Below are positions 2,798 to 16,376 of a stretch of DNA of 36,015 nucleotides, one piece after another (position 1 is the first letter of the stretch; the number at the start of each line of letters is the position of its first letter). A program made the translations under genes and the position numbers. The stretch spans positions 1 to 36,015 of the forward strand of contig JALONO010000015.1 in NCBI GenBank assembly GCA_025454895.1. The letters run 5' to 3'. Origin of the DNA: Bernardetiaceae bacterium. GTDB taxonomy: Bacteria; Bacteroidota; Bacteroidia; Cytophagales; Thermoflexibacteraceae. The notes beneath the pieces are model-generated. The model ran no database searches. It had not been told where the DNA came from and was given only the letters and a program-made list of their open reading frames with translations.

Positions 2798-3247
2798 TTA
2801 CTCCACGGGCACTAGTTCGTAGGTGATCTCCGGCTCGGTTTTGTCCTGGGTGCGGGGCACGCGCCAGCGCAATTGAAGCTGGCTGGCCGTTATGGGAACC
2901 ACGATAGCCAAGGCCACCTCACTGGGCGTGCCCCGGTCCAGGGTGAGGCGGATGGGGTTGTTAGTGTCGTTCAAGAGCCAAGTGCCCGTGTTGCCGGGGG
3001 TGAGGTTAGGGCGCGGCGCGCCTCCGGGCGTAACGGTGTAGCTGCCACCATCGGTAGTAGCGCCAGCCGTGAACCGCAGCCGGAAGTTGGCGTAGTTGCC
3101 CTGGTTGTCCACCTGGCCGTTGATCAAGGCCCGGGCCACCCGCCATTCGCGGGCCAGTAGTTCGGCCGGGGTGGGGTCGTTGTTGCGGCGGCGGCACTGG
3201 GCCAATAGCATCACCAAGGCCAAACTTATCAAAAGGTTTTTTTTCAT
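2798..3247 (-). CDS. Small lipoprotein, possibly lipocalin-like
   Basis: This 149-aa product starts MKKNLLISLALVMLLAQC, a textbook lipoprotein signal with the lipobox LLAQC (Cys18). The mature part has a helix with REWRVARALI and then alternating beta segments (ANFRLRFTAG, SYTVTPGG, GTWLLNDTN, PIRLTLDRG, LQLRWRVPR), a pattern like the lipocalin-type lipoproteins common in Bacteroidota. The family assignment is inference from the pattern only. It is probably held on the outer membrane. The stop codon overlaps the target duplication of element A, whose insertion kept the reading frame intact. The next gene on the same strand (3561-7622) is 313 bp upstream and probably separately transcribed. 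Confidence 0.75.
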   Translation of the reverse strand: MKKNLLISLALVMLLAQCRRRNNDPTPAELLAREWRVARALINGQVDNQGNYANFRLRFTAGATTDGGSYTVTPGGAPRPNLTPGNTGTWLLNDTNNPIRLTLDRGTPSEVALAIVVPITASQLQLRWRVPRTQDKTEPEITYELVPVE

Positions 3248-3560: not shown

Positions 3561-6500
3561 TTACTGCCTCACCAGTCGATGGGTGAACTTTTGGCCGCCC
3601 ACCTCTATTTCAAGCAGGTACAGCCCGGTGGGCAAACCCGTTAGGTTGAGCACGGTGTTCTCCTCGGCGGGGCGCACGGTTTCGGTGGGCCGCAGCACCC
3701 GGCCTTGCAGGTCGGCAATGCGCACCGTGCGGCCCTGGGCTTGGCTGGCCCACCTAATGTTGAACTGGCCGCTGGCCGAAGGATTGGGGTACACCGCGAA
3801 CCACCGCCCGGCGGTGGGGTCTTCGCCCGCCACCACAATGTTCACCACTTTTTCCACCGTCCGTTGGCTTTGCGGGCACTCGAGGCTGGTGGCTGTTAGG
3901 CGCACCCGATACGCCCCCGCGCGCTGGTACGTGTGGCTGGGCCTAGCCCCGGTGCCCCGGTTGCCGTCGCCAAAATCCCAGTCGAAGCGGGCGCGGTGGG
4001 CGGTGGTCAGTTGGGTCTGGAAACGGACCTGGCTAGGGTCGTTGCGGTCGGGTTCGGAGGCAAAGTCGAGGTTGGTGGGGTCAAAAAAGGCTACCCACAC
4101 GGCATCTTCCACGGTATTGCCGCAACTGGTGGTAACCTGTACCGTGTAACGCCCGCTTTGCCGCACCGTGAGGCGGCGTTGGGTGCTGCCGTCTGGCCAG
4201 CGGTAGGCGGTGCCCCCAGCCCCGGCATCGAGCACAAAGGTTGGCTCGCAGGCGCGGAGGGTGTCGGGCCAGATACTGGTCAACTGCCTCGGGAACAGTA
4301 CGTACACCGAATCGCGCAGGGTGTTTTGGCACGAGTCGGTAATGGTAACCAGGTAGCGGCCGTTTTGGGTGGCCGTCAATCGGCGGGCGGTGCTGCCGTC
4401 TTGCCAGCGGTAGGTGGCCCCGGGGTTGCCTGCGTCCAACAGCAAGTCGTTGTTGCAAACGCTCACGGTGTCGCGGGCAAACGGATCGGCCAGCCGGTCC
4501 AAGCTCACCACTACGCTGTCGGTGGCGGTGCGGCCGCAGCTATCGGTTACCGTAACCCGGTACCGGCCCGACTGCCGGGCGGTGAACCGTTGCCCGGTGC
4601 TGCCGTCTTGCCAGCGGTAACGCATGCCGGGGTTGCCCGCGTCCAGTTCCAAGCTAGGGCGGCAGGTGCGTAGGGTGTCAAGCCCCAAGTCCACTCTGGC
4701 CACGGGCGGGAAACGGACTTCCACCGTATCGGCCACCTCGGTGTCGCAGTTGCGGGGTTTCACGCTTACCCAGTACACGCCGGGGCGGGTTACCCGCAGG
4801 CGTTGGCTAGTGCTGCCGTTGTTCCAGCGGTAGGTGGCCCCTTCGTTACCCGCGTTGAGTTCTACGGAAGGCTCGCACGCGATGAGGGGGCTAGTGCCTA
4901 GCTCCACCGTGGGCCGTGGCACCACGGTAACGGTTACGCGCGCCGAGTCTTCGGGGCAGGGGCCGTTGCCCAGCACCCGCACGGTGTAGGTGGTGGTGCG
5001 GAGGGGCCGCACCGTGGGCCGGGACGAAAACGGATTGGAAAGCCCCACCGAAGGCGACCAGACGTAAAACGCTCCCCCCGTGGCCCGGAGTTCGGCCTGG
5101 CCCCCTTCGCACACGGTAATTTGGCTGGCCGCCACCTGCGCCCGGATCCGGTCCGTGAAACTCACCCGCACCGAGTCGGAGACGGAGCAACCGCCGGGGC
5201 TGGTTACCCTCACCCAATACAGCCCGGCCTGATTGACCTGGATGGCTGACTCGCGGCTACCCGTGGACCACTCGTAAATATTATTGTCGCCGGGGATGAA
5301 GGCACTCAAAAACGCTTGGCCGCCCCGGCAAACGGTGAGGTCGTCTTGCGGGAACTGGGTGAGTACCGGTTGGGGGTTTACGGTTACCCGCACCGAGTCC
5401 ACCACTTCGCCGCAGGCCGAGTTGGTGCGGATGCGCACCCGATAAACCGTGGTGCGCTGGGGCCGGGCCACCGGGCTAGCCACGCGGGGGTCCGACAAGC
5501 CCGCCGCCGGGAACCATTCGTAACTGGTGCCGCCCGAGGCGGCCAGCGGGGCACTGCTGCCCAGGCAAATACGCACGTTGCGGTTGGCCACGCCAGCTTC
5601 CACCACGGCGGCAATCACAATCTCGTCGGTGGCTTCGCAGCCGTTGCGGCGCACTTTTACGCTATACCGGCCGGGGCGCAGCACTTCCAGCCGCCGGGTG
5701 TTGGCCCCGTTGCTCCATTCGTATTCGGCGTCGGCCACCCCGGCATCCAGGGTGAGCCGCTGGCCGGGGCACAGCACGGTGTCGCGGCCCAGGTTTACGC
5801 TGAGGCTGCCCGCACTCACCCGGATCAGGTTGGTGCGTTCCAGTCGGTTTTCGCCGTTGGGGCCGGTGGCCACCAGCACCACGGTGTAAGTGCCGTCGCG
5901 CTCGTAGCGCACGGCCGGGGTGCGTTCGGTAGAAGTAGCCGGGGTGCCACCCGGAAACTGCCAGGCAAACGAGGTGGCGTGGCGGCTCTGGTTGGTAAAC
6001 TGCACCTCGCCGGGGCCACACAGGGCCGTGCGGCTCGGCTCAAATAAGGCCACGGGCCGGGCCACCACCTGCCGGCAGTTGGCCTCGGGCACCCGTTGCA
6101 TGGGCGCAGGGCCGCAAATAGGGGCCGCCGTGAGGCTGTTTTGCACGATCCGATTGCCCGCCGCCCGGTTGTTGGCGTTGAGTTGCCGTTTTACCTGGCC
6201 CGGCCGCAGGCGGTAATACATCAGGTCGGCGGGGTCGTTGACGGCCTCGAGCTGGCTGGCCCGGCCCAACAGGCGCAGCACCTCCGACTCGAAGTCCATT
6301 TCGCCGGGGCCGGGGTTGCCCTCAAAAGCCCAGCGCAGGTTCTGGTCCAACACCATTGTGAAGCCTTGGAGCCAATAATGGCGTTGCCCGCCCGCCTGGC
6401 AGCTTTCATAAACGGAGAAAAAGTAACTGGGCGAGTTGTCGCCAAAAGGCGGGATTTCGCCGATGGTGATCGAGCTGACCCCGTTGAACCCGGTACCTCC

Positions 6501-7622
6501 AATCGGCCCTTCGGCGGCAGCCACTTGCAAATTGATGCCCGTGGCGCAACGCCAAGTAGCAAAAGCCCGGCTCAAAGCCGCCATTTGCCGGGTATTGGCA
6601 AAAAACTGCGGATCCACAAAAACGGTGTAGCCGCCCTCGCTATTCAGGTTGAGCAGCAAAGGGTTTTGGGGCGGGCGGCCCTGCCCGGTGGTATCGCCAA
6701 AAAAGCCGAATTTTTGGGTGGTGAGCGCGTAATTCACTTGCAGGTTCTCCAGGCTTTCAAATATTTCCCCTCGGTCGTTGCGCACGGCAATTAGCCCAGT
6801 GCCGGCAAAAGCGGGCACGTACACTTCTATCCGGGTATCGGACCAAGAGATCAACTCCGACAAGTCAGGCTGCCAAAACCCGAATTCCGAGATCAGTTCG
6901 CGCGTGGAGGCCCCGCCGTCGTCGTTACGGGTAAACAGCACGTTGCCGCGCTGGCCCCGCCGGGCACCAAAGCCCCGGCCGTTAATGGTGAGGCGGGTGC
7001 GGGTACCCGCTTCCACTACCCGGGGGAAAAACGACTCGATTTCCACATCTTCGGTGCGGGCGTGGGCGGGCCGGGGTTCAAAGGCGGCCAGGTGCTGGTC
7101 GCTGCCGGGCTGCACGTAGGTGAACGGCCCGCTGGCCTGCAACGCCGGGTACACCTGCTGCCGCAGGTTGCCCAGTCCGGTGCCGCTGGCGGTTACCGCG
7201 CGCCGCCGCACCGGGTCGTAATGGGCAAAGCCGTTGGGGATCAGCTCGTAACGTCCGGCCACCTGGCGCAGAAAATACAGCCCGGTTTCACCGGGGTTGG
7301 GCAAGTGGGCACTGGTAACCACCCAGTTTTGCTCGGAGGTGCCGCCCTCGGCCCAAAAGTGGGCTGCCGGGCCAAGCTGGGCCAACTGCCCTTTGGCCAC
7401 TTTGTACACCTCGAGCGAGAAACGGGTAAATACGGTTTTACGCTGGGGGTCCCACTGGCCCGCCTGTTGGGTGATTTTGCCTTCCACCACCAAATCGGCT
7501 TGGGGCAAGATGCGCGATAGCCAGTCGCCCGGCTGGGAAACGGGCTGGGATTGGGCCTGCCTGGCCAGCCAAGGGCAAAACAGGGCCACCCCGATGAGAC
7601 ATCGGAATAGTTGGGTTTTCAT
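3561..7622 (-). CDS. Giant T9SS-secreted protein with dead matrixin-like domain, PKD and Ig-like repeats
   Basis: The 1353-aa product has a signal peptide (MKTQLFRCLIGVALFCPWLA), an N-terminal domain, a TIG/IPT-like domain (about 193-295), and a matrixin-like domain (about 330-475). These are followed by a PKD-like domain (about 520-600), eight Ig-like repeats of about 70 residues (about 605-1185, each with a central YxWxxGS-type strand), a PKD domain with FDWDFGDG (about 1190-1260) and a type A sorting domain (VYPNPSASGQF to the C-terminal KFTHRLVRQ). It should be exported by the type IX system and anchored or released at the cell surface. In the matrixin-like domain the zinc motif is destroyed: residues 450-460 read RLLGRASQLEA where active relatives have HExxHxxxxxH, while the following DPADLMYY is kept. 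A role in adhesion or binding rather than proteolysis is inferred. Repeats 6 and 7 are nearly identical. Confidence 0.9.
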   Translation of the reverse strand: MKTQLFRCLIGVALFCPWLARQAQSQPVSQPGDWLSRILPQADLVVEGKITQQAGQWDPQRKTVFTRFSLEVYKVAKGQLAQLGPAAHFWAEGGTSEQNWVVTSAHLPNPGETGLYFLRQVAGRYELIPNGFAHYDPVRRRAVTASGTGLGNLRQQVYPALQASGPFTYVQPGSDQHLAAFEPRPAHARTEDVEIESFFPRVVEAGTRTRLTINGRGFGARRGQRGNVLFTRNDDGGASTRELISEFGFWQPDLSELISWSDTRIEVYVPAFAGTGLIAVRNDRGEIFESLENLQVNYALTTQKFGFFGDTTGQGRPPQNPLLLNLNSEGGYTVFVDPQFFANTRQMAALSRAFATWRCATGINLQVAAAEGPIGGTGFNGVSSITIGEIPPFGDNSPSYFFSVYESCQAGGQRHYWLQGFTMVLDQNLRWAFEGNPGPGEMDFESEVLRLLGRASQLEAVNDPADLMYYRLRPGQVKRQLNANNRAAGNRIVQNSLTAAPICGPAPMQRVPEANCRQVVARPVALFEPSRTALCGPGEVQFTNQSRHATSFAWQFPGGTPATSTERTPAVRYERDGTYTVVLVATGPNGENRLERTNLIRVSAGSLSVNLGRDTVLCPGQRLTLDAGVADAEYEWSNGANTRRLEVLRPGRYSVKVRRNGCEATDEIVIAAVVEAGVANRNVRICLGSSAPLAASGGTSYEWFPAAGLSDPRVASPVARPQRTTVYRVRIRTNSACGEVVDSVRVTVNPQPVLTQFPQDDLTVCRGGQAFLSAFIPGDNNIYEWSTGSRESAIQVNQAGLYWVRVTSPGGCSVSDSVRVSFTDRIRAQVAASQITVCEGGQAELRATGGAFYVWSPSVGLSNPFSSRPTVRPLRTTTYTVRVLGNGPCPEDSARVTVTVVPRPTVELGTSPLIACEPSVELNAGNEGATYRWNNGSTSQRLRVTRPGVYWVSVKPRNCDTEVADTVEVRFPPVARVDLGLDTLRTCRPSLELDAGNPGMRYRWQDGSTGQRFTARQSGRYRVTVTDSCGRTATDSVVVSLDRLADPFARDTVSVCNNDLLLDAGNPGATYRWQDGSTARRLTATQNGRYLVTITDSCQNTLRDSVYVLFPRQLTSIWPDTLRACEPTFVLDAGAGGTAYRWPDGSTQRRLTVRQSGRYTVQVTTSCGNTVEDAVWVAFFDPTNLDFASEPDRNDPSQVRFQTQLTTAHRARFDWDFGDGNRGTGARPSHTYQRAGAYRVRLTATSLECPQSQRTVEKVVNIVVAGEDPTAGRWFAVYPNPSASGQFNIRWASQAQGRTVRIADLQGRVLRPTETVRPAEENTVLNLTGLPTGLYLLEIEVGGQKFTHRLVRQ

Positions 7623-8336: not shown

Positions 8337-9398
8337 TTAATGAGCGTTGCGGCTCCCGGGCAGCAACACCTGGTCAATCACATGCACTACTCCATTGTTA
8401 GCCAGCACGTTTACTGCCACAATGTTGGAAGGACGCTCGTTACCGCCGCCCGTTACCGTGGGGCCACCGCTCAGGCCGATGACCACATTGCCTCCCAGCG
8501 TATTAAACCGGCCGGGGCGCAGATCGGTAGAAAAGGTGGGCAGGCCCGCATCTACATGTAAGAACAGCACGCGGCGCAGGTCGTTGATCAGCCGTGGGTC
8601 GTGGATAGCGTTGATATTCCGCGCGTTATTGAACGGTGCAGGCAGTTTGGCAAAAGCGTCGTTAGTAGGGGCAAACACGGTGAACGAGCCGGAAGACAGC
8701 GTGTTGGCCAAGCCAGTTTTGAGGACGGCGGCCACCAGGGTAGCAAAGGCCGGGTTGCCCACAGCAATACCTACGATGCTCTTGTCGGGCGGGATGAGCA
8801 CGGCATCCAGCGCGTGGATGATGCCATTGGCCGCGTCCACATCAGGAATAACGACCCGGATGTTGCCATTGACAAAGATGCCGTTCCCAGTGTTAGAAAA
8901 GTACAGGCGGTTGTCGCTGTTCGCTACCCGACGCTTCTCCGTATTAGCCGGGATTTCCCGGCGCAGAAAGCGCGAGTTGCGCTCACCGTGTACCACGTGA
9001 TAGAGCAAAATGTCGCGCAGGGCGTCTTTAGTAGCCTGGTCATTGATGGTGGCGATGCTTTGCGGGGTGTTAAACGGAGCCGGCAGTTTGGCAAAAGCGT
9101 CGTTAGTGGGGGCAAAAACCGTAAAACTGGCCCGCCGGTTGGCCAGGGTGGGCACCAAGCCGGTTACCTTCACGGCCTCGACCAAGGCACTGAAATTGGG
9201 GTTGCCCACGGCGATGTCCACAATGGTGGGTTGGTTGGCGTTGCGGCTTCCATTGCTAAGGTTAACTTCTAGTTCGTTGATCTCTGCCTCTAAATCCTGA
9301 GGGGTAACTTCCTGGGGGGCTTGGCAACTGGTGAGCACAGCCATGCCAGTAGCGGCAATCAAGGCAAAACGGCGCAAGGCGGAAATTAATTTTTTCAT
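8337..9398 (-). CDS. Lipoprotein with two fasciclin (FAS1) domains
   Basis: This 353-aa protein has a lipoprotein signal ending in LTSC (Cys25) and a short acidic linker. Two FAS1 domains follow at about 58-200 and 207-350. Both carry the conserved FAS1 motifs: SFTVFAPTNDAFAKLPAPFN occurs in each with one preceding difference, and each ends with a hydrophobic closing segment (GIIHALDAVLIPP and GVVHVIDQVLLPG). FAS1 domains mediate cell-surface adhesion and protein-protein contacts; the lipid anchor places it on an outer or inner membrane surface. Near-identity of the two FAPTNDAF blocks suggests recent duplication or gene conversion. Element B sits directly after the stop codon. Confidence 0.92.
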   Translation of the reverse strand: MKKLISALRRFALIAATGMAVLTSCQAPQEVTPQDLEAEINELEVNLSNGSRNANQPTIVDIAVGNPNFSALVEAVKVTGLVPTLANRRASFTVFAPTNDAFAKLPAPFNTPQSIATINDQATKDALRDILLYHVVHGERNSRFLRREIPANTEKRRVANSDNRLYFSNTGNGIFVNGNIRVVIPDVDAANGIIHALDAVLIPPDKSIVGIAVGNPAFATLVAAVLKTGLANTLSSGSFTVFAPTNDAFAKLPAPFNNARNINAIHDPRLINDLRRVLFLHVDAGLPTFSTDLRPGRFNTLGGNVVIGLSGGPTVTGGGNERPSNIVAVNVLANNGVVHVIDQVLLPGSRNAH

Positions 9399-13163: not shown

Positions 13164-13842
13164 CGCTTTTTTTAACAAATCCCTCATGATTACTTGCTGA
13201 TCTGCAAGTTTTTATTGCATGTAGCCAAGAAAAGCGTCCACTAGAACTGGGGTAAAACTTACAAGCTGGGCGGCAAGGTGCCCGTTAGCTGGCCCCAGGC
13301 TGGGCTGGCTTACCTGGGGTGGCCCCACGCCCCCTGGAAACGGTTGAGCGCAGCAGTTTGACTAACCGCTTGCCTCCAAGTTTATTTTAAGATAAAAATT
13401 GTTAACCCGGCTTTTATTTTTGGAAGCCTCGTTCTGGTCTGAAACCCCGATTTTGGCGGCATTTTCATTGATTTATATTGTTTAAGGATTTATTTTTTGA
13501 TGATTTACCAATAAAAGTACAATAAAAACATTAGGTAGAGAGTTGGGTCTCACGATTAATCAAATATTAACCTTTGCCGGGCGTTATGCGTAATGTGTAA
13601 CAAAGCAGCCGGGGCTTGCCCCCGGCCTTTAAAGAGGAAAGTAGGGCTTGGATACTATCTTTTAGTAACGACTAACCAGCCTTTAGCTGCTGTTTAGGCG
13701 GGGCCATATTTGGGTGCTGGTCGGCTCTTGCCTTCGCCAACTTGGTGCAATCGCAAGTCTAATCCGTCGGCTTTCCCACCACCGGGCCAATGCGCCCGCT
13801 AACCCGCCTTTGCCCGTAGCTAACGGCCTAACTTTGATAGGC
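13164..13842. other. Intergenic region with a GC-rich hairpin
   Basis: No gene or known riboswitch was recognised, and in particular no TPP-type element precedes the THI5-like gene. A strong hairpin lies at 13608-13626: GCCGGGG pairs with CCCCGGC across CTTGC, and the stem can be lengthened by AAAG/CTTT. It is not followed by a T run. The segment 13260-13370 is GC-rich and self-complementary (for example CCCCAGG with CCTGGGG), while 13380-13560 is AT-rich. Confidence 0.45.
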
Positions 13843-14751
13843 ATGACCCAGCTTCGGCTAGCACTTGACTGGATACCTAACACGTTGCACGCGGGCTTTT
13901 TGATTGCCCAGGCCAAGCATTGGTTCCAAGAGGCTGATTTACAAGTGCGATTTCTTTCTCCAGCCGATGATCAATACGCCAGCACGCCAGTGGAAAAATT
14001 ATTGCGCGGGCAGGTAGATTTGGCCATTGCCCCGTCGGAATACGTGATCGCCAACCACGCCCAAGGCAAAGGAGAACTGGTGGCAGTGGCTACTTTGCTG
14101 CAAGACGACGTGAGCGCCTGGGCCACCGTGCGGCGGGGCAAAATCATCACCCGGCCCGTTTATGCCGCCCTTGACCTGCCTTACGAAAAATGGGTGATTG
14201 AACAATTTAAGCACTACCAGCCGCGATTTAAGCCCATCAAGTCCGAGGCCCCGCCCAACAAACTCGACACCTGGGAAGCCCTCAAGGACGGCCAGGCCGA
14301 CTGGTGCTGGATTTATTTGCCCTGGGAGGGGATCGAAGCCGCCAGCCTGGGCCTCTCGTTGGAAACCATCCGGTTGGAGGCGGCGGGCATCCCCTACGGC
14401 TATTGCCCCTTGCTGATCTCGACCAAGCAGTTGCTAGAGCAACACGCCGATGCCCTGGCCGACTTTGTGCGCCTGAGCGCGGCGGGTTATTTCTACGCGG
14501 CCGACTACCCCAAGGAAGCTGCTGAGATGCTACAAACCCTGCTGCCCAACCCGCCGGAGTGGTTATACCGCTCATTGATTGAAGTGAACAAACACGCCCT
14601 CCAGGCCGATGGTGCCTGGGGCTTAATGGAACGCAAACGCTGGGACGATTTTATAAATTGGCTGCGCGGCCACGGGGCTTTTGCTAAGGTACTCAATCCT
14701 GACAAGCTGTTTACCAATAACTTACTGGTGGAAAATAGTTTTTGGAGCTAG
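13843..14751 (+). CDS. THI5/NMT1-like solute-binding-fold protein without signal peptide
   Basis: The product is 302 aa from the ATG at 13843. The longer frame from 13714 adds only non-conserved residues. It opens with MTQLRLALDWIPNTLHAG, the signature start of the NMT1/THI5 family, followed by FQEADLQVRFLSPADD, LLRGQVDLAIAPSEYVIAN and GIPYGYCPLLIS. Relatives bind or make the thiamine pyrimidine HMP, or other small ligands. There is no signal peptide or lipobox, and no permease or ATPase gene is adjacent. The iron-binding CCCFC motif of yeast Thi5 is absent. A cytoplasmic binding or enzymatic role is therefore possible; ligand unknown. No partner genes in view. Confidence 0.8.
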   Translation: MTQLRLALDWIPNTLHAGFLIAQAKHWFQEADLQVRFLSPADDQYASTPVEKLLRGQVDLAIAPSEYVIANHAQGKGELVAVATLLQDDVSAWATVRRGKIITRPVYAALDLPYEKWVIEQFKHYQPRFKPIKSEAPPNKLDTWEALKDGQADWCWIYLPWEGIEAASLGLSLETIRLEAAGIPYGYCPLLISTKQLLEQHADALADFVRLSAAGYFYAADYPKEAAEMLQTLLPNPPEWLYRSLIEVNKHALQADGAWGLMERKRWDDFINWLRGHGAFAKVLNPDKLFTNNLLVENSFWS

Positions 14752-14814
14752 TTTTTTTCGCCTTGCCCGCCTTGATCGTGGCAAAACAATCGTTTCAAAA
14801 TCCGCGCGATGGGT

Positions 14815-14822
14815 TAAATTTG
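14815..14822 (+). promoter_or_regulatory. Likely promoter of the DUF6913-dapA pair
   Basis: TAAATTTG is an exact TAnnTTTG -7 box. TTTC at 14793-14796, 18 bp upstream, is a near match to the -33 TTTG. Transcription would start near 14829, about 80 nt before the ATG at 14909. Confidence 0.45.
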
Positions 14823-14908
14823 TTGCCCTTGTCTGATAACCCCGGTTACTACTTCTTTACAAGTATTTTTTTGCCGGTCGTTTTGGCCATAGTTTATCTG
14901 CGCCTAGC

Positions 14909-15439
14909 ATGAATTTGATCAAACAGTTTTTCTTGCAACGCAAAGTGCGGGCTGTGCAACGTGAAGTAAAACGGCCCCGCAGTACCATGAGCTACGCCGA
15001 GGTGCGCCAAGTGGGGGTGTTTTTGATCGCCCACGAGGAGGAGCACCAGCGCCAACTTACCCAGTTTATCCGCGCCCTCCAGCGCGACAACAAGCAGGTT
15101 ACGGTGCTCACCTACTTCGGCAAGCAGCGCGATATTGCTTATCCGTTTGAGCATGAGTTTTTTACCGAAGCCGACATCGACTTGTGGGGCGAAGTCCATT
15201 CCGCCTCGGTGCTCCACTTTGTACAAAAGCCGTTCGATTACCTGTACTGCCTCAGCCTGGACGAGCCGCTGGTGCAAGACTGGTTGCTGGCCACCTCTAA
15301 CGCCAAGTGCCGGATCGGCCCGCACTGGCAGGGCAAAGAACACCTGTTTGAAATGATGGTGGCCCTGTCGCCCGGTCAAGGGTTGGGTGCCCTCATTGAA
15401 CAGGTCCAGCATTACACGAAAGCCCTGGTAGCACATTAA
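14909..15439 (+). CDS. DUF6913-like conserved Bacteroidota protein
   Basis: A 176-aa cytoplasmic protein without signal peptide or membrane segment. It begins with a basic N-terminal helix (MNLIKQFFLQRKVRAVQREV), followed by an alpha/beta core: VGVFLIAHEEEHQRQLTQFI, VTVLTYFGKQRDIAYPFEHE, FTEADIDLWGEV, FDYLYCLSLDEPLVQDWLLA and the C-terminal KEHLFEMMVALSPGQGLGAL. I associate this pattern with the DUF6913 family, which I recall lying next to dapA in Bacteroidota; the link here (55 bp between stop and start, same strand) supports co-transcription. The biochemical role is unknown. The antisense frame at 14894-15451 is a shadow. Confidence 0.75.
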   Translation: MNLIKQFFLQRKVRAVQREVKRPRSTMSYAEVRQVGVFLIAHEEEHQRQLTQFIRALQRDNKQVTVLTYFGKQRDIAYPFEHEFFTEADIDLWGEVHSASVLHFVQKPFDYLYCLSLDEPLVQDWLLATSNAKCRIGPHWQGKEHLFEMMVALSPGQGLGALIEQVQHYTKALVAH

Positions 15440-15494
15440 CTTAGCGGCCAATTAACTACTTGGGGCGGCTGCCCCGAACTTTTATCCCGTTTTT

Positions 15495-16376
15495 ATGACC
15501 TCCCTGCAAACTGCCCTGCAAGGCACCGGAGTGGCCCTGGTTACCCCTTTTGACCGCGATGGTCAGGTCGATTTTGAAGGATTGGCCAGCCTACTCCGAC
15601 ACACCCAACATGAGGTAGAATATTGGGTAGTCCACGGCACCACCGGCGAGTCGGTTACTACAACCGCCGCTGAAAAGGCCGCCATTTTTGATTATGTACG
15701 GCAACATAACTCCCAAGACCTGCCCCTGGTGTACGGTCTGGGCGGCAACAACACCCAAGCCGTGGTGGCCGAACTGCGGCAAACCGACCTGGCCGGGGCC
15801 GTAGCGGTGCTTTCGGTTTCGCCGTATTACAACAAACCCTCGCAAGAAGGGCTGTACCAGCACTATGTGGCCGTGGCCGAAGCCTCGCCGCTGCCAGTAC
15901 TGCTTTACAACGTGCCAGGTCGCACGGGGGCTAACCTAACGGCCGCCACTACGCTGCGGCTGGCCCAGCACCCTAACATCATCGGTATCAAAGAGTCGTG
16001 CCCGGACCTGGGCCAGGCCATGCGCATTGCCCGCCACAAACCCGACGACTTTTTGCTCATCAGTGGCGATGACCTGCTCGCCGTGCCCATGCTCACTTTT
16101 GGCGCGGCCGGGGTTATTTCAGTGCTGGCCAACGCTTTTCCCATCCAGTTTGGGGGCATGGTGCGGGCCGTGTTGCAAGGCCAGTTTGCCAAGGCCGCAC
16201 CCACGCTACTCAACTTCAACGAAATCAACGACTTGATGTACCAAGAAGGCAACCCGGTGGGCGTAAAAACCGCCCTGGAAATGCTGGGGGTATGCGCGGC
16301 CCACGTGCGCCCGCCCCACGCGCCCGCCTCCGAGGGCCTGCGCCGGGCCATTGCCGAGAAAATGGAGTTGTTTTAG
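15495..16376 (+). CDS. dapA: 4-hydroxy-tetrahydrodipicolinate synthase
   Basis: DapA condenses pyruvate with L-aspartate semialdehyde, the first step towards diaminopimelate and lysine. The 293-aa length is normal. All catalytic residues line up with the E. coli enzyme at an offset of five: Thr49 and Thr50 (HGTTGE), Tyr112 (SPYYNKP), Tyr138 (YNVPGRTG) and the Schiff-base Lys166 (NIIGIKES). The glycine-rich SGDDLLAVPML segment and GVISVLANAFP are also typical. It follows the DUF6913-like gene closely and is probably co-transcribed with it. It supplies peptidoglycan precursors in the cytoplasm. Confidence 0.97.
   Translation: MTSLQTALQGTGVALVTPFDRDGQVDFEGLASLLRHTQHEVEYWVVHGTTGESVTTTAAEKAAIFDYVRQHNSQDLPLVYGLGGNNTQAVVAELRQTDLAGAVAVLSVSPYYNKPSQEGLYQHYVAVAEASPLPVLLYNVPGRTGANLTAATTLRLAQHPNIIGIKESCPDLGQAMRIARHKPDDFLLISGDDLLAVPMLTFGAAGVISVLANAFPIQFGGMVRAVLQGQFAKAAPTLLNFNEINDLMYQEGNPVGVKTALEMLGVCAAHVRPPHAPASEGLRRAIAEKMELF

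Follow-up and report, generated by a model that had tools for sequence, protein, structure and literature searches.

The question raised by this locus is whether an exported protein encoded in the window (the whole stretch of 36,015 nucleotides analysed) contains a matrixin-like domain that has lost its active site, and whether such a domain is a product of decay or has been kept for another purpose. The open reading frame of 1353 aa occupies positions 3561..7622 of the minus strand, and all features of the gene given below are on that strand. The protein starts with a putative Sec-type signal peptide (approximately residues 1-26, 7545..7622), read by eye as a hydrophobic stretch up to AQSQ. 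It is followed by an N-terminal domain with no assigned family (approximately residues 27-190, 7053..7544), delimited in the alignment of orthologues and common to intact proteases too, and by an IPT/TIG domain (residues 195-284, 6771..7040), matched by Pfam PF01833 at a sub-threshold E of 0.0028 and also detected in orthologues and intact relatives. The candidate zincin domain covers residues 295-501 (6120..6740). It was recognised by homology to intact M10-like domains and by an AlphaFold2 model similar to karilysin and the MMPs; a Pfam scan of the entire protein placed no family over it. PKD and Ig-like repeats (3873..6050; Pfam PKD, PKD_4, Ig_7) connect it to a C-terminal sorting domain (residues 1277-1353, 3561..3794; PF18962, E 2.5e-13; TIGR04183, E 2.2e-15), the hallmark of T9SS type A cargo.

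Residues 443-470 (DFESEVLRLLGRASQLEAVNDPADLMYY, 6296-6213) give a gap-free alignment with the HExxHxxxxxH motif and Met-turn of intact relatives, exactly as the first-pass annotation had proposed. The former zinc-binding motif (residues 450-460, 6243..6275) reads RLLGRASQLEA, and thus the HExxHxxGxxH signature of active M10 peptidases is absent. The first histidine is replaced by R450 (CGC, 6275-6273), the catalytic glutamate by L451 (CTG, 6272-6270), the second histidine by R454 (CGG, 6263-6261) and the third by A460 (GCC, 6245-6243). The Met-turn DPADLMYY (residues 463-470, 6213..6236) is kept, and its Met468 is invariant across all dead relatives described below. The interval originally given for the lesion, 6240-6300, spans the motif but misses the Met-turn. 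Judging from the lost ligands, the domain should be able neither to hold a catalytic zinc ion nor to cleave peptides. Chance similarity of this segment was considered and ruled out. Its ungapped BLOSUM62 score against the corresponding segment of an intact paralogue from genome G005 (DFETTALHEIGHTVQLAHIIDPTDVMHY) is 64, compared with 13 for the next best placement of the latter in the window protein and 38 for the best of 3000 shuffles (mean 11.7); in an earlier run of 300 shuffles, one reached 49.

The domain was modelled with AlphaFold2 together with eight orthologues, at moderate confidence (mean pLDDT 57, pTM 0.61). The elements of the model follow the zincin order, with the Met-turn region poorly modelled (pLDDT below 50). 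In this moderate-confidence model, helix A, the mixed sheet, the active-site helix, the Met-turn and the C-terminal helix that define the metzincin fold can all be assigned. The first-pass annotation had named a comparison with matrixin structures as a check. Structural alignment by VIA-align ranks karilysin (2xs4) first (Z 12.3, rmsd 3.4 over 146 residues), with MMPs filling the list, and the top Foldseek matches are matrixins, the best being MMP-16 (E 2.1e-4). A longer model, comprising the N-terminal, TIG and zincin domains, yielded mostly Ig/IPT-like Foldseek matches and is therefore uninformative about the zincin domain.

Eleven proteins lacking the site, including that of the window, were collected from seven genera and two families of Cytophagales, Thermoflexibacter ruber among them. 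No match was found when genome contigs were searched with the window protein as a lone query; the alignment as a query retrieved seven orthologues, from T. ruber and Cytophagales metagenome genomes. Of the 12 other genomes belonging to the family of the window genome, six were found to carry an orthologue when whole genomes were searched, as were four genomes from a second family within the order. Their reading frames are open, with no internal stops. The catalytic glutamate and the second and third histidines are absent from all 11 proteins. The first-pass claim that all ligands had been lost is therefore correct for the window protein, and for these three positions clade-wide, but not for the first histidine, which is left in two members; overall, position 450 is occupied by seven different residues. 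Position 451 is L, A or S. Position 454 is R, K, I or L (R or K in nine of 11 members), and at position 460 the residue is Y, A or P (Y in seven of 11). All four residues H, E, H, H are present in each of 42 intact homologues from the same alignment. HExxH occurs in 26 of 26 further relatives sampled from the class, and all 68 relatives sampled outside the dead clade keep it. One protein of genome G040 (L028) has an intact HELGHAQQLGH motif, and the methionine of its Met-turn is apparently replaced (NTLTAALFYG); this is a candidate natural Met-turn variant.

Over the domain, identity among the dead orthologues is only 29-44%. When a profile of the 11 dead domains was compared with that of 15 intact domains, 202 columns aligned at E 3.4e-44. 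The Pfam matrixin family PF00413 is matched by all 15 intact homologues and weakly by three of the 11 dead proteins (best 0.0055), the window domain being unmatched. No relative of the dead domain emerged from sequence searches of PDB; the intact profile found MMPs. As a caution, Pfam annotation misses matrixins that lack HExxH.

In a tree built with the motif columns removed, the 11 dead proteins form one clade (support 100/99, present in 100% of bootstrap trees). Its sister (97/92) is the intact paralogue from G005, a genome of the same family that carries the dead and intact copies together. An intact copy of this subfamily was sought in all dead-clade genomes. It was detected only in G005 and in none of the other 10 of the 11 genomes, several of which are incomplete; the G005 paralogue is also the sole intact copy that the searches revealed in the two families. 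Short matches in other genomes come from different proteins, most of them 845-877 aa in length, and lie mainly over the active-site segment. The loss of the site was thus a single, ancient event in one group of Cytophagales and has stayed fixed since then. The ancestor would have been a T9SS-exported matrixin with the N-terminal domain, TIG, matrixin, PKD/Ig repeats and sorting tail. Its gene probably underwent duplication in the line of descent of Thermoflexibacter-like Cytophagales, after which one of the duplicates lost the catalytic glutamate and zinc ligands in a single episode. In the simplest history, this was followed by disappearance of the intact copy from most lineages, the last step being conjectural. 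The dead copy kept its predicted fold under strong purifying selection, with the surroundings of the old cleft remodelled.

In three congeneric pairs, the dead domain has dN/dS values of 0.117, 0.055 and 0.094, compared with 0.184, 0.123 and 0.183 for the part comprising the N-terminal and TIG domains and 0.249, 0.078 and 0.126 for the repeats; because some of the pairs have saturated dS (above 1.5), rankings within a protein deserve more trust than the values themselves. The dead domain is the slowest-evolving of the parts compared within the clade, and its values are within or below those of intact pairs (0.113-0.214). The core residues W357, R358, C359, C408, D443, E445, Q457 and M468 are common to dead and active domains; Cys359 (6546..6548) and Cys408 (6399..6401), conserved in both, possibly form a disulfide. 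Active enzymes show strong conservation or near-invariance at D380, F387, P394, L398, D422 and H469; these positions have changed in the dead clade, and by analogy with the MMP pattern some of them would be expected at the rim of the cleft. In addition, G411, V461, N462 and L472 do not vary within the dead clade, and N462, G411, L472 and F335 are clade-specific conserved residues that have appeared in it.

The domain is therefore a pseudopeptidase, that is, a peptidase homologue without catalytic residues that is conserved by selection. The original pseudo-protease reading is supported by the matrixin-like model, the loss in 11 of 11 orthologues and purifying selection, and the suggestion that the domain is kept for something gains support from the low dN/dS (0.06-0.12). 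Very probably, a dead enzyme has been kept for another job. We consider it likely that the domain is a fixed and selected pseudo-protease, probably a module binding protein or glycan outside the cell. By analogy, it would be displayed on the Ig/PKD stalk, and its role may resemble that of pseudopeptidase ADAMs, where a dead metzincin domain acts in adhesion and complex assembly. The remodelled residues, the T9SS tail and the PKD/Ig stalk fit a surface-exposed binding module, which by this analogy is the most likely role, with a putative ligand. A more specific reading can be offered tentatively. The protein may be a bacterial counterpart of the pseudopeptidase ADAMs: a receptor or adhesin brought to the surface by T9SS, whose dead matrixin domain binds a specific protein or glycan through a remodelled cleft with Leu451, Arg/Lys454 and, in most members, Tyr at 460.

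One alternative casts the dead domain as a structural spacer, or a scaffold for folding, placed between TIG and the Ig/PKD repeats, conserved for folding and passage through T9SS and binding nothing. Indeed, the conserved residues are those of the fold core, the residues surrounding the cleft of active enzymes have changed, and the rest of the architecture is retained from intact relatives. However, the dead domain is more constrained than the neighbouring domains, beyond the needs of a spacer, and the clade-specific residues listed above arose in it. This makes the spacer rather unlikely. Another possibility is that the dead paralogue regulates an active matrixin or acts as a decoy for inhibitors. 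Both paralogues are present in G005, pseudoenzymes have been suggested to act as decoys (PMC3650047), and, according to a 2024 review (PMC11266112), those of metallopeptidase families can regulate active relatives. However, with no intact subfamily copy detectable in 10 of 11 genomes, an active partner of its own is generally absent, and we regard such a regulator as improbable; other metalloproteases are present in these genomes. That the domain has enzymatic activity of a different type, with the conserved Arg/Lys and Tyr taking the place of the zinc ligands, is more doubtful still: nine R or K at position 454 and seven Y at 460 could be read in this way, but nothing catalytic is conserved, given the variability of positions 450 and 451, and dead zincins in general often have R or K in place of histidine (PMC3650047). 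Recent pseudogene decay, frameshift or a sequencing error in one draft genome, conceivable for an assembly of 389 contigs, can be dismissed because the orthologue search named as a check in the first-pass annotation found the same loss fixed across 11 genomes, including T. ruber DSM 9560 (L056), and dN/dS is low.

Apart from a lipoprotein gene shared with T. ruber, no conserved gene neighbours were found across the loci of the clade. This gene (2798..3247, minus strand) immediately follows the pseudo-protease gene and encodes a putative lipoprotein of 149 aa with no Pfam family. Its homologue, likewise placed (40% identity, E about 1e-28, to L056:11746-12159 within the gene L056:11709-12165), occurs in T. 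ruber only and is absent from other clade loci. Upstream of the pseudo-protease gene, positions 8337-9398 (minus strand) encode a protein of 353 aa with two Fasciclin stretches, likely an extracellular adhesion protein. In a Cytophagales metagenome genome, the pseudo-protease gene is directly followed by tandem ORFs of 833 and 821 aa (L058:10644-13143 and 13209-15672) with identical first 70 residues.

Pseudopeptidases as such are already known (ADAM2, ADAM11, ADAM18, ADAM22). Searches of literature accessible without subscription revealed no bacterial pseudo-matrixins and no conserved monophyletic M10 pseudopeptidase in T9SS bacteria. A term search of the 2024 review (PMC11266112) did not find "matrixin", and the passages of its table that were seen contain no M10 row.

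The window domain shares the fold, the Met-turn and the context of T9SS-type export in Bacteroidota with karilysin and other bacterial and animal matrixins (MEROPS M10A, Pfam PF00413). However, it lacks HExxHxxGxxH, the zinc ligands and the general base, and is not detected by PF00413. Karilysin itself comes from a Bacteroidota bacterium. Intact T9SS TIG-matrixin proteins of Bacteroidota (for example L027, and L029 in G005) are direct homologues with 25-37% identity over the domain, and they share its N-terminal domain, TIG, zincin domain and sorting tail; they differ in having HExxHxxQLxH, and the nearest is shorter (820 aa). Arg/Lys for histidine and Leu/Ala for glutamate are substitutions typical of dead zincins, and similarly non-random changes are seen in CLCA and other families with substituted HExxH, although these are other zincin families in which active and dead members are mixed (PMC3650047). 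The pseudopeptidase ADAMs listed in PMC11266112 include ADAM2 (QLLSLSMGITYD), ADAM18 (QLLGLNVGLTYD), ADAM11 and ADAM22; in ADAM2 and ADAM18 leucine replaces glutamate and the Met-turn is kept. The resemblance is close. The window protein is like them in having, within an extracellular multidomain protein, a dead metzincin domain with the E to L change, lost histidines and a retained Met-turn, whereas ADAMs belong to M12 rather than M10, are animal and membrane-anchored, and lost the site independently. The best-known dead metallopeptidases are those of animals (ADAMs, M14), and a dead matrixin fixed for a long time in one bacterial clade, together with its intact sister paralogue, constitutes a natural experiment on the metzincin fold without catalysis.
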